Positions 4,367 to 64,000 of a stretch of 64,000 nucleotides of DNA are shown in pieces (positions within the stretch are counted from its first letter, which is position 1; each line of letters starts with the position of its first letter). The notes beneath the pieces were generated by a model. That model did no database searches. It had not been told where the DNA came from and saw only the letters and a program-made list of their open reading frames with translations. A program made the translations under genes and the position numbers. Origin of the DNA: Acidithiobacillus caldus ATCC 51756 (GTDB lineage Bacteria; Pseudomonadota; Gammaproteobacteria; Acidithiobacillales; Acidithiobacillaceae); assembly GCF_000175575.2 (NCBI RefSeq), contig NZ_CP005986.1, positions 1,746,714-1,810,713 on the forward strand, given 5' to 3'.

Positions 4367-4368
4367 AC

Positions 4369-40532: not shown

Positions 40533-40540
40533 AAACCAAT

Positions 40541-41086
40541 ATGATTCGCCAACCTCTGTTTCACATCCTCGCCCTGCTGTTGGACTATCCGGACAACGCG
40601 CTGCGCACCGCCCTTCCGGAACTCCGCACGGACCTGCTTGCAGAAGTCCGTCTGCTCTCATCTGAGCGAAGCGTGGTACTACAGCATATCGACTGGATGG
40701 AGATGCAAGAGCCGCTCGCACTGGAGGCGAAGTATGTCGAGACCTTCGACTGGACTCCAAGCTGCGACTTGCATTTGAGCACGCATCTTCTACCAGAAGA
40801 CGACCGCGGCCGAGGGTCTGTGCTATTACGTTTACTGGAGCACTATTCGGCCCACGGTTGGATCCCCAGTAATCACTGTCTGCCCGATTACCTACCGGTG
40901 ATTCTTGACTTTGCCGCCACACTCACCACGGAGGAGAGTCGCGTCTTTCTGGCGGGCGCGCAGGAGTCGATCTCGATCCTTGAGCGAAATCTGCGCGCCG
41001 TTCACAGTCCATATGCAGATCTGGTGGCGATAATCCTTCCGTATGCACAACTCGTTGACAAGCTTCGAGCAGGAGTGGAGTCATGA
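40541..41086 (+). CDS. narJ: Nitrate reductase assembly chaperone
   Basis: 181 residues, all helical, of the NarJ/TorD family. The start LFHILALLLDYPDNALRTAL and the later AKYVETFDWTPSCDLHLSTH block are the conserved chaperone segments. NarJ holds apo-NarGH until Mo cofactor and clusters are inserted. The gene lies nine bases after narH with only a weak ribosome site, and its stop overlaps the narI ATG. Slightly shorter than E. coli NarJ, as is common outside enterics. Confidence 0.92.
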   Translation: MIRQPLFHILALLLDYPDNALRTALPELRTDLLAEVRLLSSERSVVLQHIDWMEMQEPLALEAKYVETFDWTPSCDLHLSTHLLPEDDRGRGSVLLRLLEHYSAHGWIPSNHCLPDYLPVILDFAATLTTEESRVFLAGAQESISILERNLRAVHSPYADLVAIILPYAQLVDKLRAGVES

Positions 41087-41781
41087 TCTGGTCTTGGAAT
41101 TATTTTTTCTTTGGCGTCTATCCTTTCATTGCCGGGACGACATTCCTTGTCGGATCGGCAATCCGTTATGAGCGTGAGCAGTACGGTTGGTCAAGTTTCT
41201 CCAGCCAGATACTTGCATCAAAACGCTACATGATGTGGGCAAGTAATCTCTGGCATGTCGGTATTCTCACCCTCTTTCTTGGCCATTTTACTGGGTTTCT
41301 CACGAACATTCTCGAGTGGTTAGGGGCTGATCCTGTCGAACACCAGTGGATTGCCGCCAGTGCTGGAATCACCGCAGGTGTGCTTGCCATGATCGGGGGG
41401 CTCATGCTCCTGCTTCGGCGGCTTCTCGATCCCAAAGTCCGGTATGCTAGCCGCTTTATGGATATTTTTATTCTCGTGTGGTTGTTGATTACTCTGAGCT
41501 TTGGGCTGGGTACCCAGTTTATCAGCGTCCCGGACGCGGTATCGGGGCACGTTCAGAACATGCAGATCTTGATCCAGTATGTGCGGAGCATAGCGACATT
41601 CCAGCCGGATCCCGCTCTTATTCGCACTATTCCCATTATTTACAAGATCCATATGTTTTGTGGAATGACCGTCTTTCTGCTTTTTCCTTTTAGTAGACTG
41701 GTACATATCTGGACTGTGCCCTTGAATTACGCTATACGACCTTATCAGCTGGTGCGGGCCAAAATTCGTTCGGTCATATAG
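41083..41781 (+). CDS. narI: Respiratory nitrate reductase, gamma subunit
   Basis: 232 residues with five membrane helices. Haem b ligands are the His in NLWHVGILTLFLGHFTGF and in KIHMFCGMTVFLLFPFSRLVH. It oxidises quinol at the periplasmic side and passes electrons to NarH. GGAGTGGAGTC precedes ATG 41083, which overlaps the narJ stop. Length is close to E. coli NarI (225). Confidence 0.94.
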   Translation: MIWSWNYFFFGVYPFIAGTTFLVGSAIRYEREQYGWSSFSSQILASKRYMMWASNLWHVGILTLFLGHFTGFLTNILEWLGADPVEHQWIAASAGITAGVLAMIGGLMLLLRRLLDPKVRYASRFMDIFILVWLLITLSFGLGTQFISVPDAVSGHVQNMQILIQYVRSIATFQPDPALIRTIPIIYKIHMFCGMTVFLLFPFSRLVHIWTVPLNYAIRPYQLVRAKIRSVI

Positions 41782-41790
41782 GGATACGAA

Positions 41791-42210
41791 ATGAACGACA
41801 AGAACGTACGAGGACTCCAGCAATGGGTGAGTTCAATTGGTCCAGACGTGCTCGTTACGCGGATGGAAGCGCAACTGGAGAAATCTCGATTCACACTCTT
41901 TGGTCGTATTGATCACGCGCATGCTGCAAGGAGTGCCGGTTTGTTCCTTCCTTTTTGCACAGTGCTCATATTTGGCAGGCCAAGCGGTGGTACCGAACTC
42001 ATGCGGGTTTTTCCAACACTCGCAATCGACTTGCCGAGCAAGATCCTTGTCTACCAGCGTGAGGCCGACGTATCCGTAGTTGCGTTTACCGATTTGTCAT
42101 ATACTGTCGAGCGCCATGGACTCCAGGGTGACAGGCTCCTGGCTCAAGTGGACGCCTTCGACCGAGAGGTTCACACCATTATTTCGACTGTCCTAACCGA
42201 TTCGGGATGA
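41791..42210 (+). CDS. DUF302 family protein in the nar operon
   Basis: 139 residues. The DUF302 core is visible: LEKSRFTLFGRIDHAHAA, then FGRPSGGTELMRVFPTLAID and LPSKILVYQREADVSVVAFT. It belongs to a different branch from the DUF302 protein in the cop cluster (1171). It follows narI by nine bases and precedes the nitrate transporter, so it is almost certainly part of the nar transcript. No catalytic role is known. Confidence 0.82.
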   Translation: MNDKNVRGLQQWVSSIGPDVLVTRMEAQLEKSRFTLFGRIDHAHAARSAGLFLPFCTVLIFGRPSGGTELMRVFPTLAIDLPSKILVYQREADVSVVAFTDLSYTVERHGLQGDRLLAQVDAFDREVHTIISTVLTDSG

Positions 42211-42252
42211 ATAAATCGATACGGTAGGGTACAAACACCGGAGGAACAATTC

Positions 42253-43569
42253 ATGGCGCAGAATGACGTGAACATTCAGGGTTCACCACGTAGCGTTCTG
42301 GCTGGAGCGACTATCGGTTTCTTTATTGGTGCGGGATCGGTATCTCTCTACGGGCCAACCGCACACATCTTTGTGCAAGCCATGCATCTATCTCCCACTC
42401 AAATTGGCTGGCTCGTCGGCATGCCTATGCTAACCGGTGCTCTTCTTCGCATACCGTTTGGTGCCTCTGTTGATCATAACGGGGGACGTGTCCCTTTCTT
42501 GGTCCTGCTCGTGGCGTCTTTGGTTGGGATAGCTGGACTCTACTGGATGCTATTGACCTTGTATCCGAATCATCTTGATGCACACTCTTATCCCTACTTG
42601 CTAGCGCTCGGCGCGCTTGCGGGCAGCGGTATTGCCACATTCTCCGTAGGCGTTGGACAGGTGTCCTACTGGTATCCGAGAAAAAAGCAAGGCGAAGCTT
42701 TGGCCGTTTTTGGCGGTTTAGGAGATTCATCTCCTGGATTTGTTGCACTCATTCTGCCAAGTGTGATACTGATGACCGGACTCTGGTCTGGTTATTTATT
42801 CTCCCTGGCCATGATTATCTTGGGAATTTTGCTTTATTATTTCCTGGGCAAAAACGCACCGTATTTTCAGTATATTCACCATATGGAGAAAAATGCAGCG
42901 ATAGATCATGCTAAAGCGAATGGCGAGGAATTATTTCCTACAGGAGGTGTTTGGCATTCACTCAGTTTATCTGCGAGTCATTGGCGCACCTGGCCTCTAG
43001 TCGGGCTGTACTTTACCAATTTTGGCGGCTTTCTTGCGCTTACGGTCTGGCTTCCCACCTTTTGGGAGAGCTATTATCACACCAAGACCATGACCGCCGT
43101 CATTCTTACAGCATCCTTCTCTTTACTCGCTGCTTTCATTCGCGTCTGGGGTGGAGCGCTCGCGGATCGGGAGGGTGGTGAGAAAATTGCGATTATTTCG
43201 TTAACCATCTTACTCGGTGGTGCGGTCATCATGACCCTTTCACAAACCTTCTGGTTGACGGTAATCGGAGAATTCCTCGTGGGAGCCGGCATGGGCATAA
43301 ACAACGGTGCCGTTTTCAAGCTGGTGCCCCATTACGTACCAGATGCGGTTGGCGGTGCGTCGGGTTGGGTTGGCGGTCTCGGCTGTCTGGGCGGCTTCGC
43401 GGTGCCTCCGCTCCTGGGAGGATTCGTCGATCGCTTTGGCACTCAGGGATATCCTCTTGGGTACAGCGTATATATCGGCCTGGCAGTCGTGAGCTTACTG
43501 TTGGTCTGGATTTTGGTTAGGACGCGAGACCACGTAGCTGGAGGACACTCCATTTCTCCGATGCATTGA
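42253..43569 (+). CDS. narK: Nitrate/nitrite transporter (MFS)
   Basis: 438 residues, twelve membrane helices. The nitrate-porter signatures are present: the Gly-rich helix 5 stretch LAGSGIATFSVGVGQVSYWY with PRKKQGEALAVFGGLGDSSP, and the second NAVNNGAVFKLVP-type motif, here GMGINNGAVFKLVP with VGGASGWVGGLGCLGGF. It brings nitrate in or exchanges it for nitrite. GGAGG lies eight bases before the ATG. As the last gene of the nar group it completes a self-sufficient nitrate respiration unit. Confidence 0.92.
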   Translation: MAQNDVNIQGSPRSVLAGATIGFFIGAGSVSLYGPTAHIFVQAMHLSPTQIGWLVGMPMLTGALLRIPFGASVDHNGGRVPFLVLLVASLVGIAGLYWMLLTLYPNHLDAHSYPYLLALGALAGSGIATFSVGVGQVSYWYPRKKQGEALAVFGGLGDSSPGFVALILPSVILMTGLWSGYLFSLAMIILGILLYYFLGKNAPYFQYIHHMEKNAAIDHAKANGEELFPTGGVWHSLSLSASHWRTWPLVGLYFTNFGGFLALTVWLPTFWESYYHTKTMTAVILTASFSLLAAFIRVWGGALADREGGEKIAIISLTILLGGAVIMTLSQTFWLTVIGEFLVGAGMGINNGAVFKLVPHYVPDAVGGASGWVGGLGCLGGFAVPPLLGGFVDRFGTQGYPLGYSVYIGLAVVSLLLVWILVRTRDHVAGGHSISPMH

Positions 43570-52213: not shown

Positions 52214-52930
52214 CTAGTGCGTCAGCAGCTCCACCCATCGGGCATATAACTGACGAGAAATATCGGCCAAACTGGCACATTTCTGAGCTAAATCGCGTGT
52301 GATCTCATCGACCGATTGTACGCCAACCCCGGTGTTTTTCAAGTCTTCCGCCATTGCCAACGTCCACGATCGAACAATGGTCTCGGTTACCTCGGGATGA
52401 CCCTGTAGAGCCAAACAATGCTGCCCAATAGAAAATGCTTGATTGGCACAAATGGCGCTAGATAAAATAGGTATGCCACCCTCTGGTAGCATGAAGGTTT
52501 CCCCGTGCCAATGAAAAAGGAGAAATGATTCCGGTAGCCCTTTCAGCCATAAACTTCTGCGTCCCGCAACGGTTTTCTGAACCGGAAACCATCCTATCTC
52601 TGGCCCGGATGGATTTGCAATAACTTGCGCACCCATAGCCTTGGCGATAAGCTGAGCACCCAAACAATGTCCTAAGGTTGGTTTCTCAGCTTTGATGGTC
52701 GCCCTAATTAGTTGCATTTCATCTGAAAGCCATGGGTATCGATCTTCATCGTTTGCACTCATGGGGCCACCCATAATTACTAGACCGGAATAAGCATTAG
52801 AATTTTTAGGTACGGGCACTCCAAGATCAAGCCGATGGATGGTGGGATGATGATCGCTTTCCAAGAATATCTCTTCTAAAAGCCCTAATCCTTCCTCAGG
52901 ATGATGTTGTAACACAAGAATATTGCTCAC
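52214..52930 (-). CDS. Class I glutamine amidotransferase-like protein
   Basis: 238 residues, GATase1 fold. The oxyanion strand YSGLVIMGGPMSAND, the nucleophile elbow LGHCLGAQLIAKAMGA (Cys in the GxCxG-like motif), and the His-Glu pair in LALQGHPEVTE complete a catalytic triad. It is similar to stand-alone GMP-synthase-like amidotransferases that have other amide substrates. ATG 52930 has an ambiguous ribosome site. It stands alone among IS remnants. Confidence 0.85.
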   Translation of the reverse strand: MSNILVLQHHPEEGLGLLEEIFLESDHHPTIHRLDLGVPVPKNSNAYSGLVIMGGPMSANDEDRYPWLSDEMQLIRATIKAEKPTLGHCLGAQLIAKAMGAQVIANPSGPEIGWFPVQKTVAGRRSLWLKGLPESFLLFHWHGETFMLPEGGIPILSSAICANQAFSIGQHCLALQGHPEVTETIVRSWTLAMAEDLKNTGVGVQSVDEITRDLAQKCASLADISRQLYARWVELLTH

Positions 52931-53436: not shown

Positions 53437-54024
53437 GGGCAGGTGTGGAGCACGGATATCACGTATGTTCGGCTGAAGCAGGGGTTTGTCTACCTGGTCG
53501 CCATCATGGACTGGTATAGCCGCAAGGTCTTGAGCTGGAGAATCCGCAACACGATGGACACGGCCTTTTGTGTCGATTGCCTGGAAGAAGCGTTACCGCG
53601 TTACGGAGCCCCGGAGATCTTCAATTCGGATCAAGGCAGCCAGTAGTTCACCAGCGCGGCCTTCGTCGGCGTGCTCAAGGCCCGCGATGTGCGGATCAGC
53701 ATGGATGGGCGTGGCCGAGCCTTGGACAATGTCTTTGTGGGGCGCCTGTGGCGATCCGTGAAGTACGAGGACATCTACCTGAAGGGCTACGCGGGTGTGC
53801 CGGACTTGTTGCTAGGGCTTACCGAGTACTTCGGGCGCTACAATACCCTTCGCCCCCATCAATCGCTGGGCTACGCCACCCCCGATCTCGTCTATCGGAC
53901 TGGGCAGGGCGGTGGTGCCTGTATCGTGGACAAGTATCCAAAAGCGGACCGAAAGGTCATCGAGGAGGTCGTGGGGCAGCGCCAATCCGCTGCGAATGAG
54001 GACGCCAGCACTAGCTTAAACTGA
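53437..54024 (+). pseudogene. IS3-family transposase OrfB fragment with internal amber
   Basis: The rve integrase core starts abruptly at GQVWSTDITYVRLKQGFVYL, continues through AIMDWYSRKVLSW and the second Asp in FNSDQGSQ, and is then stopped by TAG (53647-53649). In the same frame it continues FTSAAFVGVLKARDVRISMD, the Glu-containing WRSVKYEDIYLKGY and RPHQSLGYATP. The N-terminal half of OrfB and all of OrfA are missing. The probable right end of the element is near 54053. Confidence 0.82.
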
Positions 54025-54160: not shown

Positions 54161-54315
54161 AACTAGAGCCAGCACCGCCTACAAAGTTTTTTGTCATGAG
54201 TTGTCATGTGTTTTCAGAGTCGGCTTCGTGGCGCACGAACTAGAGCCAGAACTAGAGCCAGGGGGGGTCGCCCGGGGCAGGTCGTTTGGCAGAACTAGAG
54301 CCAGACTAGAGCCAG
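54161..54315 (+). repeat. Five copies of AACTAGAGCCAG
   Basis: Copies at 54161-54172, 54238-54249, 54250-54261, 54293-54304 and (without the first A) 54305-54315. Two pairs are directly adjacent. The array lies between the IS3 remnant and the tRNA-Asn fragment. No gene covers 54025-54361. Function unknown. Confidence 0.85.
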
Positions 54316-54325
54316 ATAAGCAAAA

Positions 54326-54352
54326 AGCACTTAGGGATAAATCCTAAGTGCT
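54326..54352 (-). terminator. Rho-independent terminator behind the tRNA-Asn fragment
   Basis: Perfect 10-bp stem AGCACTTAGG / CCTAAGTGCT (54326-54335 and 54343-54352) with a 7-base loop. Read on the minus strand it is followed by TTTTTG, and it lies 10 bases after the tRNA 3' end, so it is probably the original tRNA terminator. The plus strand also has a T-rich tail. Confidence 0.8.
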
Positions 54353-54361
54353 TGTTTTATT

Positions 54362-54408
54362 TGGCTCCCCGGGACGGGCTCGAACCGCCGACCTAGTGAT
54401 TAACAGTC
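54362..54408 (-). other. 3' half of a tRNA-Asn gene, probable attachment site
   Basis: On the minus strand the sequence from GACTGTTAATCAC through GGTTCGAGCCC to GGGGAGCCA matches tRNA-Asn from the GTT anticodon loop to the acceptor 3' end. The 5' half is missing: upstream DNA (54409 onward) has no D arm, and only three of five anticodon-stem pairs remain. Integrases that target tRNA genes leave exactly such a displaced 3' half. The terminator on its left marks that side as the old chromosome, so the inserted element extends to the right. Confidence 0.8.
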
Positions 54409-54568
54409 CCGGAAGCGTAACATAGGACTTAATTTTTCAATCGGTTAGCTCGTCTGCCAACAGCAAAACCGGCCTCAAAAGACCAGAAGCGGGCCTTGCA
54501 CGGCCTCACCATGGTACATATTCGTCACACCCAGCGCCCTGCCCTTCGGCTATACCTATCCAGCAGCA

Positions 54569-54589
54569 GACGAGACAATCCGTGCTTTA
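54569..54589 (+). repeat. GACGAGAC motif, copy 1
   Basis: GACGAGACAATCCGTGCTTT, 72 bases before the PLD-family gene. It shares 16-17 positions with copies at 56370, 61227 and 61953. A companion GCTATACCTATCCAG lies at 54549-54563. Possibly a promoter or regulator site of the element. Confidence 0.7.
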
Positions 54590-54660
54590 GGCAGGAAGGC
54601 ATTTTCTTGTGCCCTTCCCCTAGAATCCCAATAGGTTTCCCGGATCCCTGGAGGTAGCGC

Positions 54661-55602
54661 ATGCCTTTGTACATCGAACCGAACGCTGGCCCAGCGCCGA
54701 TTCTGAATATCATCGACTCGGCCCATCACCAACTCGATATCGGGGTGTACTACCTCGACGATCGCCGAATCCTGGCGGCGGTACGGGATGCCGTGCGTCG
54801 TGGTGTGGACGTGCGGATCATGATGGAGCCGAAGCCCTACGGGATGAAGCCTTGGCAGGTTCGCAAGGAGGTCCGCGCCATCGAGGCAACCGGGGCGCAT
54901 TTCCGTTATGTGCCCAACCGGTTTGTGAGCCACGGCGACCGCTATGCGTTCTACCACGCCAAGTACTGTGTCAACGGCCATGAGGCCGAAATCGGTACGG
55001 CAAACTTCGATTGGTCGGCTTTCCACCGGAACCGTGAGTACCTGTACGACACGACCAATATGACGATCGTGCGCGCGGTGCAGGCGGTGTTCGATGCCGA
55101 CTGGAACCGCCAGCATGCGTCGGCGTGGGCGCATCCGGTGCTGGTCCTGTCTCCTGGCACGTCCGCGGATCAGCTCTTACGGGTCATCGAGCAGCCGGGG
55201 CCGATCGATGTGGAGAGCGAGGAACTGGGGCCCTATCGTCCTATCCTCGATGCTCTGGCGGCCAAGGGGAAAGACCTGCGGATGATTTTGCCGGCCACCA
55301 TCAGCGCCGAGGATCGCCGCGATGTGGCTTTCCTGGAGCAGCACGGCTGCCAGGCGCGGCTGATGCCCAAGAAGCCTATCTACATGCACGCCAAGATGAT
55401 CGTGGGCAACCATCTGGCGTTCATTGGTTCTGAGAACTTCACACGGACGAGCCTGGAAGACAATCGAGAAATGGGGCTACTGCTGAACGGCAGTGATCTT
55501 GCCCATCTGCAAGCGCAATTTGACAGCGATTGGGCGATGGCAGGAGGACATCCCACGAGTGGCGTTTTGGGCAAGCTCAAGGGCTGGTTTTCCCGGTTTT
55601 GA
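54661..55602 (+). CDS. Phospholipase D-family protein
   Basis: 313 residues with two HKD half-sites: YHAKYCVNGHEAEIGTANFD (residues 98-117) and MHAKMIVGNHLAFIGSENFT (about 242-261). In each the Lys is three after the His and a Gly/Ser-Asn-Phe tail completes the phosphodiesterase motif. No signal peptide, so it is probably a cytoplasmic nuclease-like or lipid phosphodiesterase; Nuc-type PLD proteins occur on conjugative elements. GGAGG lies before ATG 54661. The metallophosphoesterase gene starts two bases after its stop. First gene of the element. Confidence 0.87.
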   Translation: MPLYIEPNAGPAPILNIIDSAHHQLDIGVYYLDDRRILAAVRDAVRRGVDVRIMMEPKPYGMKPWQVRKEVRAIEATGAHFRYVPNRFVSHGDRYAFYHAKYCVNGHEAEIGTANFDWSAFHRNREYLYDTTNMTIVRAVQAVFDADWNRQHASAWAHPVLVLSPGTSADQLLRVIEQPGPIDVESEELGPYRPILDALAAKGKDLRMILPATISAEDRRDVAFLEQHGCQARLMPKKPIYMHAKMIVGNHLAFIGSENFTRTSLEDNREMGLLLNGSDLAHLQAQFDSDWAMAGGHPTSGVLGKLKGWFSRF

Positions 55603-55603
55603 G

Positions 55604-56371
55604 ATGCGCATTGCCTTTGCCTCCGATATCCATACTGAGATAGTCGCTCTCGACTATTACCGGCAGACTGTCTTCACCAAGATTCTGCAGACGGCGGACG
55701 TGGTGATCCTGGCCGGCGACATCGCGACCACGCCGGATGGACTGAGGGCCGTTGCTATGTGGCTGCGAGCCAAAACGCGCGCCCCGATCCTCTTTGTGCT
55801 GGGCAACCACGAGTATTACCAGCAGGTCTTTCCGTCGGCCCTGCGCGACTACCACGCCGCGCTGTCCGATGTTCCGGCAGCCTATCTTCTGGAGAAATCC
55901 AAGATTCGGATAGGAGGCGTGCGCTTTCTGGGGTGTACGCTTTGGACGGACTTTGCGGGCGGGAGACACCTCGCTACCTGCGAAGCGGGGATGAACGACT
56001 TTGCCTTGATTGTTGACGTGGAGACCAACAAGCCGATCCGAGCCGCCCGTATCGCCATGGAGCACGCCGCATCGGTTGATTGGCTTGACACCCGGTTTCC
56101 CGATCCGATGCCGACGGTAGTCGTCACCCACCACGCGCCGATCTTCCTGAGCAATCATCCCCGATTTGCTGGCTCGTCTATTGCCGGAGGGTTTTGCGCC
56201 AATCTGGACGACCGGATCTTGTCTTGGCGACCCAAACTCTGGATCCATGGCCACCTGCACGATGCGGTGGAGTACACCATCGGCGAAACGACGGTCGTCT
56301 CGCATCCGTGGGGATATCCCAACGAGCGCGGCCGCATTCCTTGGTTCCGAATCCTCGATCTCGAAATCTGA
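55604..56371 (+). CDS. Calcineurin-like metallophosphoesterase
   Basis: 255 residues with the full metal set: FASDIHTE, VVILAGDIATT, FVLGNHEYY, VVVTHHAP and WIHGHLHD. These place two metal ions for phosphoester hydrolysis. It is adjacent to the PLD gene, so both probably act on phosphodiesters of the same kind (nucleic acid or cyclic nucleotide). A paralogue at 59778 on the same element is broken by a stop codon. Confidence 0.88.
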   Translation: MRIAFASDIHTEIVALDYYRQTVFTKILQTADVVILAGDIATTPDGLRAVAMWLRAKTRAPILFVLGNHEYYQQVFPSALRDYHAALSDVPAAYLLEKSKIRIGGVRFLGCTLWTDFAGGRHLATCEAGMNDFALIVDVETNKPIRAARIAMEHAASVDWLDTRFPDPMPTVVVTHHAPIFLSNHPRFAGSSIAGGFCANLDDRILSWRPKLWIHGHLHDAVEYTIGETTVVSHPWGYPNERGRIPWFRILDLEI

Positions 56372-56390
56372 CGAGACTATCTGTGCTATG
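56370..56390 (+). repeat. GACGAGAC motif, copy 2
   Basis: GACGAGACTATCTGTGCTAT, beginning at the stop of the metallophosphoesterase gene and ending 27 bases before the small gene at 56417. Confidence 0.7.
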
Positions 56391-56416
56391 GGTAAGAACG
56401 GGATTTGGGGGATCTT

Positions 56417-56584
56417 ATGAAGCGCAAGACGATGTATCAAATCCGCGAGTATCCTTCGGATGTTGCCTATTCCAAGCCTTTGGGCTTCAAGCTGCGCTCG
56501 CGCCAGCGTGCTGACAAGCTTCGGATAAGGCTTTCCAATCGGGGGCGTGACTGTTTTTTGGTGAAGTTTATTGTCCACTGTTAG
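56417..56584 (+). CDS. Small basic protein (55 residues)
   Basis: ATG 56417 preceded by GGGGGATCTT. The product starts MKRKTMYQIREYPSDVAYS and contains 14 Arg/Lys, with Cys in RDCFLVKF and at the C-terminus. No known family. It sits between copy 2 of the GACGAGAC motif and the zinc-finger gene, whose TTG start is nine bases after its stop and shares its AGGAGG. The tight spacing supports it as a real gene. Confidence 0.55.
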   Translation: MKRKTMYQIREYPSDVAYSKPLGFKLRSRQRADKLRIRLSNRGRDCFLVKFIVHC

Positions 56585-56593
56585 GAGGATCCA

Positions 56594-56938
56594 TTGTTGC
56601 AAGGTGACGAGGGCGACATCGCCTCTCAGTTTAAAGAAGCAGAGCGTGTCGCGGCCATATCGCGTTTACGTCTGGAGCCACAGGAAGAACCCGACGAAGA
56701 CGACCAAGGCAATCGGTATTGCCTGGACTGCGGGGAAATGATCCCGCAGGCGAGGGTTCAAGCGGTGCAGGCCGTCCGTTGTGTGGACTGTGCAAGCCGG
56801 TTGGAGCGAGGAAAACCGCGTGTCGGTGTCGGCGGCATTTCCAGATACCTGCGTGTGGAGAACGATGGCCAGCAGACTGGTTCATCGGCTTTGGATGACG
56901 ATCTGCACGTCGAGGATATCGGCATCGCCAAGCTGTAA
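56594..56938 (+). CDS. DksA/TraR-like C4 zinc-finger protein
   Basis: 114 residues from TTG 56594 (GGAGG five bases upstream; TTG 56597 also possible). The finger is YCLDCGEMIPQARVQAVQAV followed by RCVDC, the spacing of DksA/TraR zinc fingers. The N-terminal part (1-38) is acidic and helical. TraR-like proteins bind RNA polymerase and alter transcription of host and element promoters. The tail after the finger (about 45 residues) is longer than in TraR. Confidence 0.7.
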   Translation: MLQGDEGDIASQFKEAERVAAISRLRLEPQEEPDEDDQGNRYCLDCGEMIPQARVQAVQAVRCVDCASRLERGKPRVGVGGISRYLRVENDGQQTGSSALDDDLHVEDIGIAKL

Positions 56939-56983
56939 GGCTATACCAGAGAGAGCCAATTTTGGCCATCAAGGAGATTTGTC

Positions 56984-57490
56984 ATGAGTGGTTTGAACAA
57001 GGTGATTTTGTTGGGGTACCTGGGCGCTGACCCGGAAATGCGGTACATGCCCGATGGTACGGCAGTGGCCAATCTTTCCATTGCCACATCGGAGTCCTAC
57101 AAGGACAAGGAGGGGAATCGGCAGGAGCGCACGGAATGGCATCGTGTATCTCTGTACCGTCGTCAGGCTGAGGTTGCCGGAGAGTATCTCAAGAAGGGCA
57201 GCATGGCCTACGTCGAGGGCCGTCTCCGTACCCGGAAATGGACCGACAAAGAGGGCCAGGAGCGCTATACTACCGAGATTGTCGGCGATCGTTTGCAGTT
57301 GATAGGCGGACGCCGGGATGGTGATGGTCAGGAATCTGTGAACGGCGGTTCCAAGACTGGTCGTACGGCTCCCAAGGGTTCTGGTGGTGGTGCCAACATG
57401 GATGTACCGCCGGACGATTTTGACGACAAAATTCCGTTCGCGGTCGCCGCGGATATCGCGCGTCGGGGATTGCGGCGGGTTCGTTTCTGA
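56984..57490 (+). CDS. ssb: Single-stranded DNA-binding protein (element-borne)
   Basis: 168 residues. An OB fold with [40 protein letters not shown] and [15 protein letters not shown]. The acidic C-terminal tip that recruits replication proteins is present as DDFDDKIPF at about 143-151 but is not terminal; a further 17 residues ([16 protein letters not shown]) follow. AAGGAG precedes ATG 56984. Plasmids and ICEs often carry their own SSB to protect transferred strands. Confidence 0.9.
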
Positions 57491-57571
57491 GCAGCCTGAG
57501 TCTCCGCCCCATCGGGCGGGGATCTATCGAGGGATTGGCCGTTGTCCCAGTGTAGCGAAACAACGGCCTTT

Positions 57572-57643
57572 GCACGGTTGGCTGAGCGGCAAGGCAACGG
57601 TCTGCAAAACCGTTCCAGACCGGTTCGACTCCGGTACCGTGCT
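57572..57643 (+). tRNA. tRNA-Cys (GCA)
   Basis: 72 bases folding as a full cloverleaf. Acceptor GCACGGT / ACCGTGC, D stem GCT / GGC, anticodon stem ACGGT / ACCGT around CTGCAAA, T stem ACCGG / CCGGT around TTCGACT. All stems pair. Discriminator U, and no CCA is encoded (TTCA follows). It lies between ssb and a small gene within the element, so it is an element-borne tRNA. Confidence 0.9.
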
Positions 57644-57665
57644 TCAATATATCGGAGGGTTTGGT

Positions 57666-57881
57666 ATGCGAAAGGAAAAAATCGTTGGAAGGTTGGAGCG
57701 ATTCAAGCCACGCTTCGGCGTGCTCCAGACTCGTGTGGAGCGCGATCGGACCAAGTACACGCGCAAGGTCAAGCATCGTAACCAAGAAATTTCTGGAGAT
57801 CCGCGAGGAAAGCTTTGGGTTTTCCTCGCGGATTTCGCAAGCATGCAAGCACACGTTCGTCTTCGAGATTGGAAGCATTGA
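57666..57881 (+). CDS. Small basic hypothetical protein
   Basis: 71 residues from ATG 57666, with GGAGG seven bases upstream. It begins MRKEKIVGRLERFKPRFGVL and is strongly basic until residue 48, then hydrophobic (KLWVFLADFASM). No known domain. It follows the tRNA-Cys by 22 bases and its TGA overlaps the ATG of the glycosylase-like gene by one base, so translation is coupled. Confidence 0.6.
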   Translation: MRKEKIVGRLERFKPRFGVLQTRVERDRTKYTRKVKHRNQEISGDPRGKLWVFLADFASMQAHVRLRDWKH

Positions 57882-58489
57882 TGTTTTTCTGCGCCCGCTG
57901 CCCCGCGCTGTGCGCCTCGCGTAAGCAAATCGTTTTGCCGGACGTGTCGGACACGATGCGCCATCTGCCTTTGCTGGTCATTGGAGAGGCTCCGGGTGCG
58001 GACGAGGATGTGCAAGGTCGTGGATTCGTCGGGCGAGCCGGGCGCACCTTACATCGGCTACTGGAGTCTTTTGGTCTGGTTCGGTGGTATCAATACGGGT
58101 GCGCCAACATCGTCCGCTGCCGACCGGAAGGGAATCGCCGACCCACAGCGGAAGAAATCTGGAATTGCGGTGATTATCTCCTGGAAACGCTGGAGCGATC
58201 CGAGCCAGAGGCTATCCTTCTGGTCGGCGGTACGGCAACATCGGTCTTCTGTGGCAGCGGTCCACTCCACACGCACATAGTGGATCTGCGACGTGGTGAT
58301 CATCAACTGAATCTCGATTTGTGCCACCCACGGCTCAAGCCCTTTTTCGAGCAAAGGGCTGTTCGAGTGTTTGCCATACCGCACACCTCCCCCCTTTCAT
58401 GGAACCGAAACGCTCCGGATGGGCGGAAATGGTCGGAGTGGGCCAAGGAAGAAGTTCGTGTGCTTTCTGCGGTTTTTGCAAAGCGATAA
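57881..58489 (+). CDS. Uracil-DNA glycosylase family protein (family 4/5-like)
   Basis: 202 residues. N-terminal Cys in MFFCARCPALCASRKQIV fits iron-sulfur ligands of family 4 enzymes. Motif A is VIGEAPGADEDVQGRGFVGR, and NIVRCRPEGNRRPTAEE is the conserved ligand and substrate segment. Motif B is modified to AIPHTSPLSWNRN in place of HPSP. It would remove uracil from DNA, useful for single strands in transfer. A terminal Cys ligand is less clear, so activity is not certain. Confidence 0.82.
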   Translation: MFFCARCPALCASRKQIVLPDVSDTMRHLPLLVIGEAPGADEDVQGRGFVGRAGRTLHRLLESFGLVRWYQYGCANIVRCRPEGNRRPTAEEIWNCGDYLLETLERSEPEAILLVGGTATSVFCGSGPLHTHIVDLRRGDHQLNLDLCHPRLKPFFEQRAVRVFAIPHTSPLSWNRNAPDGRKWSEWAKEEVRVLSAVFAKR

Positions 58490-58508
58490 CTTTTCGGCTA
58501 TCTTCGTC

Positions 58509-58529
58509 TATATCCTGGTAAGGGATATA
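58509..58529 (+). promoter_or_regulatory. Inverted repeat upstream of the coiled-coil gene
   Basis: TATATCC (58509-58515) and GGATATA (58523-58529) are separated by TGGTAAG. The pair lies 27 bases before ATG 58556 and overlaps an AT-rich, promoter-like stretch; it may be an operator. Confidence 0.5.
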
Positions 58530-58555
58530 TAGAAACACTTTTTTGGGAGAAAGAT

Positions 58556-58915
58556 ATGGCAGAAGTTCAGGTGAAGCGCCGTCGTCGGACGGCGGAAGAG
58601 CGGTTGGCGGATCTTGAGGCCAAGCGTCAGCAGATGGAAGCCAAGTTGCGCGAGCAGCTGGCCAAGATCGACGAGGAAAAGCGGCGGCTCGCGGGAAGTC
58701 CCTCGCTGCGCAAGGCGCAGATGGAGAACCAGAAGCGATTCGAGCGTGCCGTACAGGAGATCGCTCCGGATCTCGATCATCGGCATTTCATCGCCATTAT
58801 CGCCGATGCGGTAGAGAGTGGTTTTGACACCGATGCCATGGCGGATCGTGGTGAGTCGCTCCTGCAAGAGCATGGCAAGGCCCGTCGTGGCCGGCGGCCA
58901 CGCTCGGCGGCGTAA
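58556..58915 (+). CDS. Coiled-coil hypothetical protein, possibly accessory mobilisation factor
   Basis: 119 residues from ATG 58556 (GGGAG upstream). It starts with a basic run, KRRRRTAEERLADLEAKRQQ, followed by a heptad-rich coiled coil to about residue 45. The second half (FERAVQEIAPDLDHRHFIAI) is helical, and the C-terminus is Arg-rich. The N-terminal layout resembles small TraD/MobC-type accessory proteins of relaxosomes. That similarity is general and I do not claim the family. Confidence 0.6.
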   Translation: MAEVQVKRRRRTAEERLADLEAKRQQMEAKLREQLAKIDEEKRRLAGSPSLRKAQMENQKRFERAVQEIAPDLDHRHFIAIIADAVESGFDTDAMADRGESLLQEHGKARRGRRPRSAA

Positions 58916-59063
58916 ACGTAGCGTAGTTTTTGGGAACCCGGGCGTAAGCACGATATGCCTCTTTCTGGGGAGAGCTAGGCCGGATCGAGTGTAGACGTCA
59001 TGCCAGACCGATCCATGCGGGTTCCCCCTTATTTTTGGCTTTCTGATATTGGGAGAGGCAATC

Positions 59064-59480
59064 ATGGATATTCAGACGGTCGATCAGCAGTACCAGCAGT
59101 TGCAGCAAGAGGCCCAAGGCGTCATGCAGAGCTTGCAGACGCTGGCGGGCAAACTCAAGACGGCGGCGGATGGCGGAAATCAGGACGCCAGGGAATGGCT
59201 TCTGGATCTCAAGGAATTGGCCCTCAACATCCAGCAGGAGCAGCAGCAGGTGATGGCCGTTATGCAGGCGCTGCACCAGGCCATGCAGAACCAATCGCAG
59301 CCTCAGTGGCAGCCGGGTTACCCGCAGACGCCTCAGCAGCAGGGCTATGGCCAGCCCGCCATGCAGCAGGGCCAAGGCGGTGGGTTCCTGTCGAGCTTCC
59401 TGAACTCCGGCTTTGGCCGTGCCATCGAGCTGGGGGCAGGCTTCGGTATCGGGGATGACCTGATCAACAGCATTTTCTAG
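59064..59480 (+). CDS. Gln-rich coiled-coil hypothetical protein
   Basis: 138 residues from ATG 59064 (GGAGAGG upstream). Residues 1-80 are helical and Gln-rich (QTVDQQYQQLQQEAQGVM, ELALNIQQEQQQVMAVM). Residues 85-115 are Pro/Gln/Gly-rich and probably disordered, and the Gly-rich C-terminus contains FLSSFLNSGFGRAIELGAGF. No signal peptide. A good terminator follows 26 bases downstream. Function unknown. Confidence 0.65.
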   Translation: MDIQTVDQQYQQLQQEAQGVMQSLQTLAGKLKTAADGGNQDAREWLLDLKELALNIQQEQQQVMAVMQALHQAMQNQSQPQWQPGYPQTPQQQGYGQPAMQQGQGGGFLSSFLNSGFGRAIELGAGFGIGDDLINSIF

Positions 59481-59505
59481 CGGATCTCCAGCCACCCTCA
59501 CTGAG

Positions 59506-59526
59506 CCGGCCTTGGGCCGGTTTTTT
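59506..59526 (+). terminator. Rho-independent terminator
   Basis: Stem CCGGCC / GGCCGG (59506-59511, 59515-59520) with a 3-base loop, followed directly by six T. It ends the transcript of the Gln-rich protein gene. Confidence 0.9.
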
Positions 59527-59777
59527 GTGTCTGCAATTCCATGGGATAGGGCCGTTTCGCCCATGTGATCCGATCACATGGGCAGGAATGCCCTAACTAT
59601 AACTGAATAGAATGAACGCAAGATAAAGGGGGTTATCCCTGGTATAGCGTGCGTATCCATTGGTTTCTCTAGGTGGATGGCATCTTATGGTCTGCTTCTT
59701 GGCCCTGTCCTGTGGCCTCTCACCCGATGCACCCTGCCCTTTGTCTATACCCAATGGTGTGAACTATCATCCGTCTC
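59527..59777. other. Leader region before the second metallophosphoesterase
   Basis: No gene. It contains a short palindrome GGCCGTTTCGCCCATGTGATC/GATCACATGGGC-like hairpin at 59555-59584 (CCCATGTGATCCGATCACATGGG) and a GCCCTTTGTCTATACCC segment (59735-59751) related to sequences at 54541 and 61612. Confidence 0.5.
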
Positions 59778-60575
59778 ATGATCCATCCCTATCTGCGCGT
59801 TCTCTCCGATCTGCATGTGGACGTCAATCCGCCGCATCTGGTGCGTCTGGCTCCTTTGACCACGGACGCCGAGAGCATTCTCGTGCTTGCCGGCGACTAC
59901 GGATCTCCCAAGAAGTTGGCCGACTGGCTGAAGCTGGCTGCCGGTTCTTTCCTGCACACGGTGGTCATTCTGGGGAACCACGATTACTGGGGAATGTCGG
60001 TCGAGAGGGCGCCGGAAAAATGGCGGGAATCCCTGGCCAACCATCTGCCCGAATCCATCTTTTCTCGTGTGACCCTGCTGGAGCGAGATACGGTGGACGT
60101 TGCTGGCATCCGTTTCATTGGGACGACTTTGTGGTCGGATTTTGATGAAGGGGATCCCTGGGCTTTGCGTGCGGCGCAGGAGACAATGCAGGACCACAAG
60201 CGTATCCGCGCCCGTGGTGGCACGAAAAGATTCCTGCCCCAGGATGCGTTGCGCTGGCATCGGGACTCGCTGCGCTGGTTAGAGAGGTCCATGGCAGAGC
60301 CTTGGGATGGCCCCAAAGTCGTTCTCACGCACCACGCGCCCTAATGGGCGTCCCTGCATCCGCATTTTCGCGCGGACGATCTGGCGGGTGCCTATGTGAG
60401 CCGGTTGGACGAGACCATCCGGACTGCTGCACAGCGTGGAGTCCGTCTCTGGGTGCATGGGCACACGCACCACGCGGTCGATTACGTCCAGGATGGGGTT
60501 CGTATCCTATCCAACCCCTTTGGCTACCCGTCGGAAGGGACTGGGGTAAAACTGGACATTGCAGTTGCGACATAA
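59778..60575 (+). pseudogene. Second calcineurin-like metallophosphoesterase, interrupted by a stop
   Basis: From ATG 59778 the frame carries VLSDLHVD, ILVLAGDYGS, VILGNHDYW and VVLTHHAP, and then TAA (60342-60344). In the same frame it continues WASLHPHFRADDL and LWVHGHTHHAVDYVQDG, with the last metal-binding motif GHTHH, to a TAA at 60575. Without the stop it has 264 residues and aligns with the protein at 55604. A single C/T-to-A change in a Tyr codon would explain it. The truncated product lacks the final His ligands and should be inactive. Confidence 0.85.
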
Positions 60576-60693
60576 CGTGGCATTTTTGCTGCGGATGCTC
60601 TGCTAGTCCGACTTTCCCACGGATTCCCTCCGGGAGCCGCCCACAAACGGCGAGTATGGGCTGGAAGTTTACCCGCGTTGTGGGTTGAGAGCG

Positions 60694-61104
60694 TCACTCC
60701 AGGCTCAGCACCAGCCGCTTGCCCAGCGCCGCAGCGGCCCGCTCCAGCTGCTTGAGGGTTGGGTTGCCCGGTTTCATCAGCCGCTGCACGGCGGGCCAGC
60801 TCGTGCCCATGGCGCGGGCTAGCTCCGAGAGGGTATGCCCCTGCCGGGCGAAGTGCAGCAGCAGCGCGGCCTGCACCGGCGCATCTGGCACGGCGACGGG
60901 CCGTCCCTGCGCCTCCTGTGGCAGTGGGATGGCGTCGCCGTCTTCGATCCGCTGCGCCAGCACGGCGGTCAGAACCTCGGCGGCATTGAAGGCCGCCTGT
61001 TCTTCGGTTTCACCTTCGGTGAAGGCTTCTTCCAGATCGGCGAATTGCACCAGAAATCCGCCTTCGGGCTGAGGTTCGATGGTGTAGGGGTAGGCGATAT
61101 TCAA
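60694..61104 (-). CDS. HicB-like antitoxin with C-terminal HTH
   Basis: 136 residues from TTG 61104 (GGAG ten bases upstream; the frame reaches 61164). The N-terminal half is the HicB partial RNase H fold: YPYTIEPQPEGGFLVQFADL and EAFTEGETEEQAAFNAAEVL. The C-terminal half has a Cro-like helix-turn-helix, HTLSELARAMGTSWPAVQRL. HicB neutralises the HicA RNase and represses its own operon. No hicA is seen on either side, so it is an orphan copy or the toxin has been lost. A palindrome lies about 40 bases upstream. Confidence 0.78.
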   Translation of the reverse strand: MNIAYPYTIEPQPEGGFLVQFADLEEAFTEGETEEQAAFNAAEVLTAVLAQRIEDGDAIPLPQEAQGRPVAVPDAPVQAALLLHFARQGHTLSELARAMGTSWPAVQRLMKPGNPTLKQLERAAAALGKRLVLSLE

Positions 61105-61143
61105 TTGATCTTGACTCCGATTTGCCGTTCGATGGCCTTGGTA

Positions 61144-61157
61144 TATCATATATGATA
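61144..61157. promoter_or_regulatory. 14-bp perfect palindrome, probable HicB operator
   Basis: TATCATATATGATA is self-complementary. It lies 40-53 bases ahead of the TTG 61104 start, within an AT-rich region suited to a promoter, and is the natural site for the protein's helix-turn-helix domain. Confidence 0.6.
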
Positions 61158-61226
61158 GATACACAAGTGCCCACTCCCATCCTTTACCAGCCCGACTTCC
61201 TCATGTGCCTGTGCTTTTCCGCCTCT

Positions 61227-61246
61227 GACGAGACCATCTGTGCTTA
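61227..61246 (+). repeat. GACGAGAC motif, copy 3
   Basis: GACGAGACCATCTGTGCTTA, ending 29 bases before ATG 61276 of a hypothetical gene. Confidence 0.7.
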
Positions 61247-61275
61247 GGTTGGGATCGAATGCACGGAGGTGACCC

Positions 61276-61587
61276 ATGAGCGTGAAGCAGGAGAATCGGT
61301 ATCGCCGTTCGGTGATTGAATCCGGTCGGCTTCGGGAGGATCGGATTCGCGAGATGGAGGCTTTGCATTGGCCGAGAGGTAAACGGCCAGCGCGTCGCGA
61401 TGTGGAGGTGCAGACCGCCAGTCGCCTCGAGGTGCGTCGATGGATGCGCGCGGTGGCCCGGGATTACGATACCGCCACGGAATTGGCGGAGGCTGCCGGC
61501 GCTGCATTCCGGCTGCCCGGGAGAGGGCTCGACGACGAGACGCACTGGGTGTGGGACGAGGCCCTGGTAGCGGTGCACGGATTCTGA
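61276..61587 (+). CDS. Hypothetical protein
   Basis: 103 residues from ATG 61276, with GGAGG six bases upstream. Mostly helical and Arg-rich in the first half (RYRRSVIESGRLREDRIREM), then acidic and Trp-containing (DDETHWVWDEALVAV). No recognised domain. Copy 3 of the GACGAGAC motif is just upstream, linking it to the same control as other element genes. Confidence 0.6.
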   Translation: MSVKQENRYRRSVIESGRLREDRIREMEALHWPRGKRPARRDVEVQTASRLEVRRWMRAVARDYDTATELAEAAGAAFRLPGRGLDDETHWVWDEALVAVHGF

Positions 61588-61738
61588 AAAGCTGCAGATC
61601 GGTTGTGCTTTACCCCTTTGCCCTCCCACGTCGCTATACCTGTCCAGGACTTCTGGATAGGTAGGCGTCCTTGCGTTATTTCTCTTTGTTTTCCGGCATC
61701 GAGGCGGCTTCCGCAGTCTGCGATGTGATCTTGAGGAT

Positions 61739-61954
61739 TTGCAGGAGGTAACTCCAGCCTGGTTGGATTCTGGAAAGTGGGCCAAAAGAAAGTGGAATGC
61801 TGCTATTGCCTGGGATGGTGCCAAGCCCAATTTCTGCGCGGTGCGTGAGCAGGGCCGTGGTATAACGCGCAAAGAGGTCTACCTTCTTGTGGAGGAGGCG
61901 GAGCGCGCGAAGATGGAGGATCTGATTTCCAGGGCATACGAGCACTGCATGTGA
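61739..61954 (+). CDS. Small hypothetical protein, start uncertain
   Basis: 71 residues if TTG 61739 is used; a better-placed start might be TTG 61763, which follows AGGAGG by 14 bases. The body reads WLDSGKWAKRKWNAAIAWDG, then GITRKEVYLLVEEAERAKME. No family recognised. Its stop is directly followed by copy 4 of the GACGAGAC motif. A GCTATACCTGTCCAG segment related to 54549 lies 90 bases upstream. Confidence 0.45.
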   Translation: MQEVTPAWLDSGKWAKRKWNAAIAWDGAKPNFCAVREQGRGITRKEVYLLVEEAERAKMEDLISRAYEHCM

Positions 61955-61973
61955 CGAGACAATCTGCGCAATT
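61953..61973 (+). repeat. GACGAGAC motif, copy 4
   Basis: GACGAGACAATCTGCGCAAT, 50 bases before ATG 62023. It overlaps the TGA of the preceding small gene. Confidence 0.7.
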
Positions 61974-62022
61974 CGTGTCGGAACGGGTTGTCCGTTTCCC
62001 TAGGCCAGCAAGGAGACAGAAG

Positions 62023-62232
62023 ATGATTTTTCACGTATGGAGCCATGGAGACCCAAGTGTAGGTATTCCTGGAAACAATGCAGAGGTGGATATATCTTCT
62101 GTAGAAGATTTTGATCCCGAAGACCGGAAAGAATACATAGACACCATAAAGAAATGCCTGAGCGCCGCCTTTTCTGAAATATGGGACGAACCTGTACATA
62201 TTGCGAGCGATGAAGAAGTTCGAGATATATGA
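62023..62232 (+). CDS. Small acidic hypothetical protein
   Basis: 69 residues from ATG 62023 with AAGGAG seven bases upstream. It starts MIFHVWSHGDPSVGIPGNN and then reads DFDPEDRKEYIDTIKKCL. Acidic, single domain, no family recognised. Lower GC than its neighbours. The next gene begins ten bases after its stop. Confidence 0.6.
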   Translation: MIFHVWSHGDPSVGIPGNNAEVDISSVEDFDPEDRKEYIDTIKKCLSAAFSEIWDEPVHIASDEEVRDI

Positions 62233-62242
62233 GAGGTCTGAA

Positions 62243-62587
62243 ATGAAACTGCAACGCTATGACGTATTTGATGATAATTATCGCCCGAACGATGATGGCG
62301 ACTGGTGCGCTGCTGAAGCGGTTGAAGAACTGGAGGCTGAGAACGAAACCCTTCTCGCCGAAATAGAACGGCTAAAATACTGCTTTGGCGTTCTGTTCAT
62401 TGACTCTCTTGGGGCCAAACGTAAATCGGTTGATGAGTGCCGAGGAAAAGTGGAATATGTTGAAATTGGTGGCACTATCTATTGGCCTCTGTCAGAACGA
62501 GACAAAGAGCGCCTTATTGCTGCCTCCTGTGGAAACGGAATTTTTGATGGACCATCGAAAGCGCCGCCACAAGAAGTTGATCGCTGA
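62243..62587 (+). CDS. Hypothetical protein with short coiled coil
   Basis: 114 residues from ATG 62243 (GAGAGG six bases upstream). DWCAAEAVEELEAENETLL is the start of a coiled-coil helix, a layout common in phage and plasmid proteins of unknown role. A strand-rich part follows (YVEIGGTIYWPLSERDKERL). It is probably translated with the preceding small gene. Confidence 0.6.
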   Translation: MKLQRYDVFDDNYRPNDDGDWCAAEAVEELEAENETLLAEIERLKYCFGVLFIDSLGAKRKSVDECRGKVEYVEIGGTIYWPLSERDKERLIAASCGNGIFDGPSKAPPQEVDR

Positions 62588-62651
62588 GGAAGCGACATGG
62601 CTGGGGTTTTAGGAAAATACATCGGCCACTTGGCGTATTCGGAGGTGTGAC

Positions 62652-63056
62652 ATGGGCCTATCCTGCGAATGTGCTTGTGATTACGGCAACTGTGGATGGT
62701 GGTACGAGGTCCACACCATAGCGAAGCCGTTGGCAACCAAGCGGACCAGAAAGTGCGTCTCATGCCGTAGGCGAATTTCGGTAGGCGATCCGGCGTACCG
62801 GATCCGTCGTTGGCGCACGGCCTCTGGTATGGTTGAAGAACGCATTCACGGCGAGGGTGGCGAGGTCCAACTAGCCGATTGGTATTTTTGCCCTGAGTGC
62901 GGCGTTCTCTACCATGCTCTGGAAAAGGTCAACATGTGTTTTGATTTGGGAACCGATGATCTGCGGGACGTTTTGCGTGAGTTCAATGCCGAGTATGCCC
63001 CGAAGGGCTTGCCTGGTTTCGCACTGAAATTGCCACCGCTGGCTATGGGTCGATAG
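62652..63056 (+). CDS. Cys-rich, probably zinc-binding hypothetical protein
   Basis: 134 residues from ATG 62652 (GGAGG five bases upstream). Cys pairs occur in CECACDYGNC, KCVSCRRRISVG and FCPECGVLY, enough for two zinc sites. The remaining sequence is alpha/beta (DDLRDVLREFNAEYAP). No named family recognised. It overlaps an open frame of a second Cys-containing peptide at its 3' end. Confidence 0.65.
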   Translation: MGLSCECACDYGNCGWWYEVHTIAKPLATKRTRKCVSCRRRISVGDPAYRIRRWRTASGMVEERIHGEGGEVQLADWYFCPECGVLYHALEKVNMCFDLGTDDLRDVLREFNAEYAPKGLPGFALKLPPLAMGR

Positions 63057-63088
63057 ACGGACGTGAGTGCGCGATATGCAAAAAACTG

Positions 63089-63253
63089 GTGCGCGAACCC
63101 TTCAAGCACGTCGCTGTCGTGCTAGACGGTGGCGAGCGGTGGGCCACGCAGAAAGACATGGACGACCCAAATATGTTTAGGGATCCAGGGTATATGGGAG
63201 AGTTTCCCATTGGGCCGGATTGCCACAAGCGGTATCTCTTGCCGGATGAGTGA
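63089..63253 (+). CDS. Short protein in an open frame lacking a good start
   Basis: The frame is open from 62981 to TGA 63253. It reads SIDGRECAICKKLVREPFKH, then GGERWATQKDMDDPNMF and FPIGPDCHKRYLLPDE, with a Cys-x2-Cys and a Cys-His that look like a zinc knuckle. The only standard start is GTG 63089, which would remove the first Cys pair. An ATT at 63029, or a frameshift from the preceding gene, would retain it. Its stop overlaps the RtcB-like fragment. Confidence 0.4.
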   Translation: MREPFKHVAVVLDGGERWATQKDMDDPNMFRDPGYMGEFPIGPDCHKRYLLPDE

Positions 63254-63380
63254 GGATCGCGTTGCGGCGGTCGGGGTCGACATTGGCTGCGGCATGTGCG
63301 CCGTCCAGACCAGTTTGTCGGCGGAGGATTTGCCCGATGTTGTGCACACCCTGAAGCAGGTGTTGTGCGTCAAGGGGTGA
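63246..63380 (+). CDS. Isolated RtcB fragment (44 residues)
   Basis: ATG 63246 begins MSEDRVAAVGVDIGCGMCAV, then QTSLSAEDLPDVV, and stops at 63380. This is the metal-binding N-terminal segment of RtcB RNA ligases, where VGVDIGCGM provides Asp and Cys for Mn2+. The other 90% of RtcB is absent. It may be a decayed remnant or a minimal peptide on the element. It overlaps the preceding open frame by eight bases and precedes the exonuclease gene by 28. Confidence 0.6.
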   Translation: MSEDRVAAVGVDIGCGMCAVQTSLSAEDLPDVVHTLKQVLCVKG

Positions 63381-63408
63381 AAAGCACGTAAACTGCTTTG
63401 GAGGTCTC

Positions 63409-64000
63409 GTGGTTCAGATATTAGCCATTGATGGCAATAACATTGGCTACGCCAGCATGTACACGCCCGCTCTGTCACGGCTTTCTCACGATGGCCAGCC
63501 GACGGGCGGCATCCTGGGGCTGGTGCAGTCGGTTATCCGCATTGCCAAACGCTATCCCGAAGCGGTGCCGATCGTGCTCTGGGACGGCCACGCGGCCTGG
63601 CGCAAGGAGCTCTGTCCCGAATACAAGGAAAACCGTCGCGACCGCCCCGACAAGGTGGCCGTAGCCGAATCCTGGAAACGGCAACAGCCCTGGGCCAATC
63701 TCTTTCTCCTGCAAATGGGTGTACTCCAGATGCGGGCACCCGATGCCGAAGCCGATGACCTCGCCGGCCGCCTTGCCTTCGCGCACGAGCGCTTCGCCGA
63801 TTTCGGTATCGATGGTATGACGCTGGTTTCGGGCGATACCGACTGGTGGCAGGCCCTGTCGCGTCACGTGACGTGGTTTACCCCCATCACGGATGGGGAA
63901 ATGACCCTTGCCGATCTCCAGACCGACAAGGCCAAGGACGGTCCCTTCTCGGGTATCGAGGAATACCTGCTGGCCAAGGCCATGGCGGGAGACCCATCCG
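63409..64000 (+). CDS. 5'-3' exonuclease (PIN/FEN-type), cut by the window edge
   Basis: 197 residues visible from GTG 63409 (GGAGG four bases upstream). Acidic metal-binding motifs are AIDGNNIGYAS, LWDGHAAWRKELCPEYKENR, EADDLAGRLA and VSGDTDWWQAL, as in T4 RNase H and the 5' nuclease domain of DNA polymerase I. It would remove primers or process flaps in element replication. The C-terminal helix-hairpin-helix lies beyond 64000. Confidence 0.85.
   Translation, partial: MVQILAIDGNNIGYASMYTPALSRLSHDGQPTGGILGLVQSVIRIAKRYPEAVPIVLWDGHAAWRKELCPEYKENRRDRPDKVAVAESWKRQQPWANLFLLQMGVLQMRAPDAEADDLAGRLAFAHERFADFGIDGMTLVSGDTDWWQALSRHVTWFTPITDGEMTLADLQTDKAKDGPFSGIEEYLLAKAMAGDPS

Follow-up and report, generated by a model that had tools for sequence, protein, structure and literature searches.

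A displaced tRNA-Asn 3' half in Acidithiobacillus caldus ATCC 51756 as the probable seam of two islands in one tRNA gene

A displaced 3' half of tRNA-Asn(GTT) in the genome of Acidithiobacillus caldus ATCC 51756 (also Fervidacidithiobacillus caldus) is very likely the seam of two islands in one tRNA-Asn gene. The first to arrive would be an island here termed E1, and the second ICEAcaTY.2, which would have entered the tRNA regenerated by E1. On our reading, the fragment serves both islands, as the att repeat on the right of E1 and as the repeat on the left of ICEAcaTY.2. It is very probably the internal junction of a 262.5-kb tandem array, the outer left boundary of which lies 80 kb away. The window, that is, the whole 64,000-nucleotide stretch of DNA analysed, corresponds to G000:C1:1746714-1810713. 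Features are collected in Table 1; positions in the text are those of G000:C1 unless the window is named.

Table 1. Features of the window (window positions), followed by the two other islands with ACTAGAGCCAG ends (genome positions)
Feature	Position	Strand	Evidence
att core, 3' 47 nt of tRNA-Asn(GTT) (nucleotides 30-76)	54362-54408	minus	own-genome sequence match
50-bp block identical to the intact tRNA-Asn region G000:C1:1983243-1983292	54359-54408		own-genome match
Terminator-like hairpin, directly 3' of the tRNA fragment	54325-54353	both strands	hairpin inspection
Five copies of the 11-bp ACTAGAGCCAG (starts 54162, 54239, 54251, 54294, 54305)	54162-54315	+	exact motif search
Island E1, right two thirds (whole: G000:C1:1720714-1801121, 80.4 kb)	1-54361		repeats, synteny, family scans
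Copper-type P-type ATPase, E1	1598-4090	-	TIGR01511, 592 bits, cut-off 397
narGHJI and narK-like gene, E1	35005-43569	+	TIGR01580 narG 1795.6 bits; TIGR01660 narH and TIGR00351 narI over cut-off
Transposase fragments (rve_3 domain), E1, where an integrase might be expected	53443-54024	+	family scan
Distal (left) end of ICEAcaTY.2: PLD-family, metallophosphoesterase, SSB, UDG, HicB-like (below cut-off)	54409-64000		family scan
tRNA-Cys(GCA) within ICEAcaTY.2	57572-57643	+	ARAGORN
GIAcaTY.3, tRNA-Lys(CTT) island	997.5-1042.7 kb		ACTAGAGCCAG ends, tRNA halves
tRNA-Thr(CGT) island, 57 kb	G000:C1 ~1345.09-1402.17 kb		ACTAGAGCCAG ends, tRNA 3' copies

The fragment includes the CCA end. Its 5' half is absent and is replaced by unrelated DNA, as the first-pass annotation had read from the letters. 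ARAGORN calls no tRNA at this site, and the tRNA-Cys is the sole tRNA called in the window. A search of the own genome with the fragment region returned five matches, the query itself included. One is the intact tRNA-Asn (1983246-1983321, ARAGORN), which shares 50 bp with the fragment at 100% identity, far beyond chance. It lies 182,171 bp to the right of the fragment (1801075), and so the intact tRNA-Asn that had been predicted beyond the right edge of the window does exist, with the same 3' sequence and with a tyrosine-integrase gene 13 bp off. Another match is a third copy of the tRNA-Asn 3' end at 1720714. This copy is 80,361 bp to the left of the fragment and is 96% identical over 54 bp. 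The three tRNA-Asn 3'-end copies share one orientation. The two weaker matches, at 76% and 75%, are tRNA-Lys(CTT) at 1042.6 kb and its displaced half at 997.5 kb.

The fragment is the already published att repeat of ICEAcaTY.2, and therefore adds little by itself. Table 2 of PMC3826726 gives this element a length of 183,318 bp, an Asn-GTT attB, repeats of 77 and 47, and Int, Xis and Trb, and the same source gives its full conjugation gene set. The expectation that the fragment is the left end of an element integrated in tRNA-Asn agrees with this entry in target, 47-nt repeat and approximate size. Excision of the ICE-2 type is documented there by PCR and sequencing, with a gel for ICE-2 in strain F and real-time PCR for the type strain. 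The attL, attR, attB and attI products of A. caldus elements were also amplified and sequenced (PMC3826726).

The integrase gene at the far end of ICEAcaTY.2 occupies 1982120-1983232 (a 370-aa ORF with a GTG start and a PF00589 match) and is preceded by a small HTH_17 gene of excisionase type. The genes to the right of the fragment had been described as being of conjugative type. This is loose for the part inside the window, where the families are those given for the left end of ICEAcaTY.2 in Table 1. PF03135 (TrbE/CagE), the sole T4SS family used in the profile search, has one match, 82 kb to the right at G000:C1:1883619, in an 830-codon open frame inside ICEAcaTY.2. The tRNA-Cys(GCA) near the left end is the only tRNA before tRNA-Asn in the ICE stretches scanned with ARAGORN. 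Shared 10-mers were considered as arm-type repeats of ICEAcaTY.2; they gave only one inverted 12-mer, which was judged uninformative.

The hairpin beside the fragment had been taken as the terminator of the tRNA itself. It does stand directly 3' of the fragment, but it is no sign of the original site: hairpins of this type also occur at both ends of the tRNA-Lys island (GIAcaTY.3), at the right end of the tRNA-Thr island and, by eye, after tRNA-Asn in G023. Being this common, it cannot tell which side of the fragment is native, and its use as proof of the native side was rejected.

What the first-pass annotation missed is that the left side of the fragment is very probably the right end of a second tRNA-Asn island, and not native chromosome. 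This island, E1, is bounded on both sides by att repeats, with a 45-nucleotide tRNA block at 1720714 and at 1801075. It carries metal and nitrate cargo. The nar cluster of Table 1 includes a narK-type transporter that scores below its cut-off and a narJ assigned by position only. A CusA/CzcA pump and an ammonium transporter are also present in E1 (ORFs, family scans). Near its right end are the transposase fragments, which we take to be IS3-like; their DNA is a 95% match to an insertion sequence copy in the tRNA-Thr island. A profile search of the whole of E1 (1720714-1801121) at E<=0.001 gave no PF00589 or PF00239 match, a search that a short fragment could escape. PF03135, the sole transfer family searched, is likewise without a match in E1.

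Mean G+C is 57.9% in E1, 57.4% in the left flank and 63.0% in the right flank. The value of E1 equals that of its left flank, so composition gives no mark of the left edge of E1, and G+C was set aside as an uninformative boundary marker. Glutamine-amidotransferase-like genes are found near both ends of E1, at 1722073-1722828 and 1798927-1799643 (window 52214-52930), the right one assigned by Pfam and the left one only from the resemblance of its start. A 1.42-kb repeat is 99.9-100% identical between E1 (1733955-1735376) and ICEAcaTY.2 (copies ending at 1817282, 1835493 and 1963784). It is an insertion sequence, judging by its transposase-like ORF. Since the copies are near-identical, E1 and ICEAcaTY.2 share recent insertions and possible points of homologous recombination.

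Outside E1, 12 kb to its left, is a 447-codon open frame (1707005-1708189) with PF13356 and PF00589 matches. This is presumably a P4-type integrase, a label of our own, and perhaps belongs to another element. The profile of the arm-binding domain PF13356 has one match, at 1707914, outside the islands. No tRNA was called by ARAGORN around this frame, between 1700000 and 1734999.

The right end of E1 is further characterized by the ACTAGAGCCAG motif. The genome contains 20 forward and 0 reverse copies, compared with 2+2 for a reversed-pattern control. All of the 20 exact copies are located at the ends of three islands, namely E1, GIAcaTY.3 and the tRNA-Thr island. The copies lie ~55-365 bp from the tRNA 3'-end copies (core positions are approximate). 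Clusters are present at both ends of E1 and match those at the ends of the other two islands. At the right ends, the start-to-start spacing is 77/54/11 for the Lys island, 77/54/11 for the Thr island, and 77/55/11 with one extra copy for E1. From this placement and spacing, the copies at the right end of E1 are candidate arm-type sites of an integrase.

The right ends of the three islands, with their tRNA parts, can be aligned over 265-282 bp at 73-91%. In each island, whether at tRNA-Asn (E1), tRNA-Lys (GIAcaTY.3) or tRNA-Thr, the two ends share an identical tRNA block of 45 nucleotides (positions 32-76). Insertion sequences abut the shared right end or sit within ~100 bp of it in 3/3 islands. 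In profile searches, neither the tRNA-Thr island nor GIAcaTY.3 matched PF00589 or PF00239. For GIAcaTY.3, a truncated integrase is listed in Table 2 of PMC3826726; the PF00589 search missed it, and a fragment in E1 could therefore be missed too. Beyond this genome, exact double-motif scans of genome_contigs and viral_contigs found 0 stretches each (the own genome may be left out of these sets). With <=2 mismatches allowed, the double motif has matches in 1 of the 31 genomes of the order, the own genome. The three islands might form a non-autonomous family with one arm-site architecture and att cores for Asn, Lys and Thr, possibly moved in trans by an unlinked recombinase tolerant of core swaps, although this is rather unlikely.

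Comparison with the sister genome G001 places the chromosomal flanks. Positions 2834-5571 of its contig C19 match G000 1717803-1720523, ending just left of the third tRNA copy, and C19 19972-27459 matches G000 1983236-1990714, starting at the intact tRNA-Asn. Both blocks have the same order and strand as in G000, and neither island lies between them. The flanks are 14.4 kb apart in G001 as opposed to ~262.7 kb in G000. This locates the native left flank most likely at 1720.5 kb rather than at the fragment. The 28 kb of G001 searched contain no second tRNA half; the 14.4 kb between the flanks is G001's own and is not a clean empty site. None of the genomes compared comes from a strain that carries E1 alone or has a clean empty site.

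G021 and G022, which belong to another genus, contain a colinear counterpart of part of E1 (1773247-1797357) at 73-92% identity, whereas only ~68% DNA identity with the same genomes is reached in the right chromosomal flank. This difference favours horizontal transfer, and E1 has likely moved horizontally. The nitrate-reductase part of E1 also has matches at ~72% in six further members of the family (G006, G011, G012, G014, G017, and G018) and at 79% in G025. In G001, a 17.7-kb part of E1 has only partial matches among those listed for the 10 of 39 candidate places that were scored. Given the wide occurrence of nar genes in the family, G001 may have lost them. A search for an intact E1 integrase near the E1-homologous block of G021 and G022 found no motif clusters and, in the nearest parts, no tRNA. 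The only tRNAs in these stretches are three in G021, at least 58 kb from the block, and the nearest PF00589 match in G021 is marginal (27.0 bits, at 1815858).

The flanking genes differ in their distribution. The left-flank protein is matched in 25 of the 31 genomes of the order and, the own genome aside, is close only in G001 (76%); the best remaining match is 57% over about half the length. The right-flank protein is matched in 30/31 genomes. Beside its homologue, at 30 loci (ARAGORN), there is tRNA-Asn at 4 (G000, G001, G023, G024), tRNA-Ala(GGC) at 16, tRNA-Ser at 1 and none at 9. Seven of these 30 loci were compared with the region by tblastx, and many short scattered pieces were set aside as meaningless. 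In G024:C10, from another genus, the tRNA-Asn (2371-2446) is followed after its 3' end by a 367-aa ORF that weakly resembles the ICE integrase in tblastx, which suggests that integration at this tRNA may be recurrent. Part of the same stretch matches G000:C1:1708663-1708788, the site of a PF00589 match.

When a tyrosine recombinase inserts an element at the 3' end of a tRNA gene, the tRNA is reconstituted on one side of the element and its original 3' half is displaced to the other side. With all three tRNA-Asn copies in one orientation, the simplest history is E1 followed by ICEAcaTY.2. E1 would have integrated by site-specific recombination in the anticodon-loop/3' half of tRNA-Asn, leaving the displaced half at 1720714, while its right end would have received a regenerated, intact tRNA. 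The 182-kb ICEAcaTY.2 would then have entered this tRNA. Its entry would have left the fragment between E1 and the ICE, and the present functional tRNA-Asn would have been rebuilt beside the ICE integrase. E1 would have lost its integrase, and insertion sequences are now close to the place where this gene would be expected. Since an integrase of its own was not found, the past autonomy of E1 is presumed. E1 would now be a decayed, potentially cis-mobilizable element (CIME), which could exit only with the ICE or by the action of the ICE integrase on the repeats.

A variant of this explanation differs in history only. E1 and ICEAcaTY.2 may have been joined elsewhere and have arrived as a 262-kb unit, in which case the inner repeat was never a separate event here. 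This is a minority possibility, though one to be kept in mind, because CIME-ICE tandem transfer is reported in other bacteria (PMC5704250) and the core is common to the inner and outer repeats. The IS-interrupted right end of E1 hints, weakly, at a long residence instead. The seam is identical in both cases, and the data do not separate the orders.

Under a single insertion, the fragment would be the outer boundary of ICEAcaTY.2 against native chromosome on the left, and the tRNA half 80 kb away would be an unrelated relic. The published account reads this way, with ICEAcaTY.2 as one element with repeats of 77/47 and with the terms "tandem", "remnant" and "Thr-CGT" absent from the main text of PMC3826726. 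Such an account is nevertheless improbable. It draws on the likeness in G+C between E1 and the left flank and on the wide occurrence of nar genes in the family, but the motif clusters that E1 shares, at both ends, with GIAcaTY.3 and the Thr island tell against it. The G001 synteny puts the native left flank at 1720.5 kb, and the excess in identity of the E1 part over the right flank in another genus also speaks against it. An origin of the displaced half by ordinary tRNA-Asn duplication or rearrangement, or by assembly error, and with no site-specific integration, is scarcely credible, since an intact tRNA and an integrase stand at the predicted place, identity stops inside the anticodon arm in each case, att products of A. 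caldus elements are published (PMC3826726), and no point in its favour was found.

With the two-island seam as the preferred explanation, the type strain would carry its genes for nitrate respiration and copper on a bounded island, one that could travel with a conjugative element, and the carrier ICE is of a type already shown to excise. The ACTAGAGCCAG end motif provides a simple sequence test for islands that lack an integrase, the tRNA-Thr island included. E1 and the tRNA-Thr island are apparently unlisted, being absent from Table 2 of PMC3826726 and from the literature searched, although they may appear by a different name among the IS-rich regions of Table S4b.

To the right of the fragment stands the ICEAcaTY.2 of PMC3826726, recognized by its tRNA-Asn(GTT) target, 47-nt displaced half, size of ~183 kb, Trb-type ATPase inside, and the genes for an integrase and an excisionase-type protein next to the intact tRNA. 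The length found here (182,171 bp) is 1.1 kb under the published 183,318 bp, which refers to a draft assembly. The parts of PMC3826726 compared make no mention of a second tRNA-Asn island directly to the left. Among the published islands, GIAcaTY.3 is similar to E1 in its ACTAGAGCCAG end clusters, near-identical right-end spacing, 45-nt tRNA block and absent integrase match. It differs in having a tRNA-Lys target and a length of 45 kb, whereas E1 uses tRNA-Asn and carries nar and copper genes.

The arrangement of E1 and ICEAcaTY.2 resembles a CIME-ICE tandem, which is a known kind. The CIME is defined in PMC5704250, in the part that also treats the transfer of CIME-ICE tandems in other bacteria. 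E1 fits this definition in having att sites at both ends and no integrase match, with cis-mobilization remaining putative. In contrast to CIME-ICE accretion of the ICESt1-related elements, the ACTAGAGCCAG motif of the E1 ends is absent from the neighbouring ICE, and E1 thus does not look like a decayed copy of ICEAcaTY.2. Like the ICESt1-related tandems of Streptococcus thermophilus, as these are presented in the same part of PMC5704250, the arrangement consists of an integrase-less, att-bounded element beside a functional ICE in one target gene.
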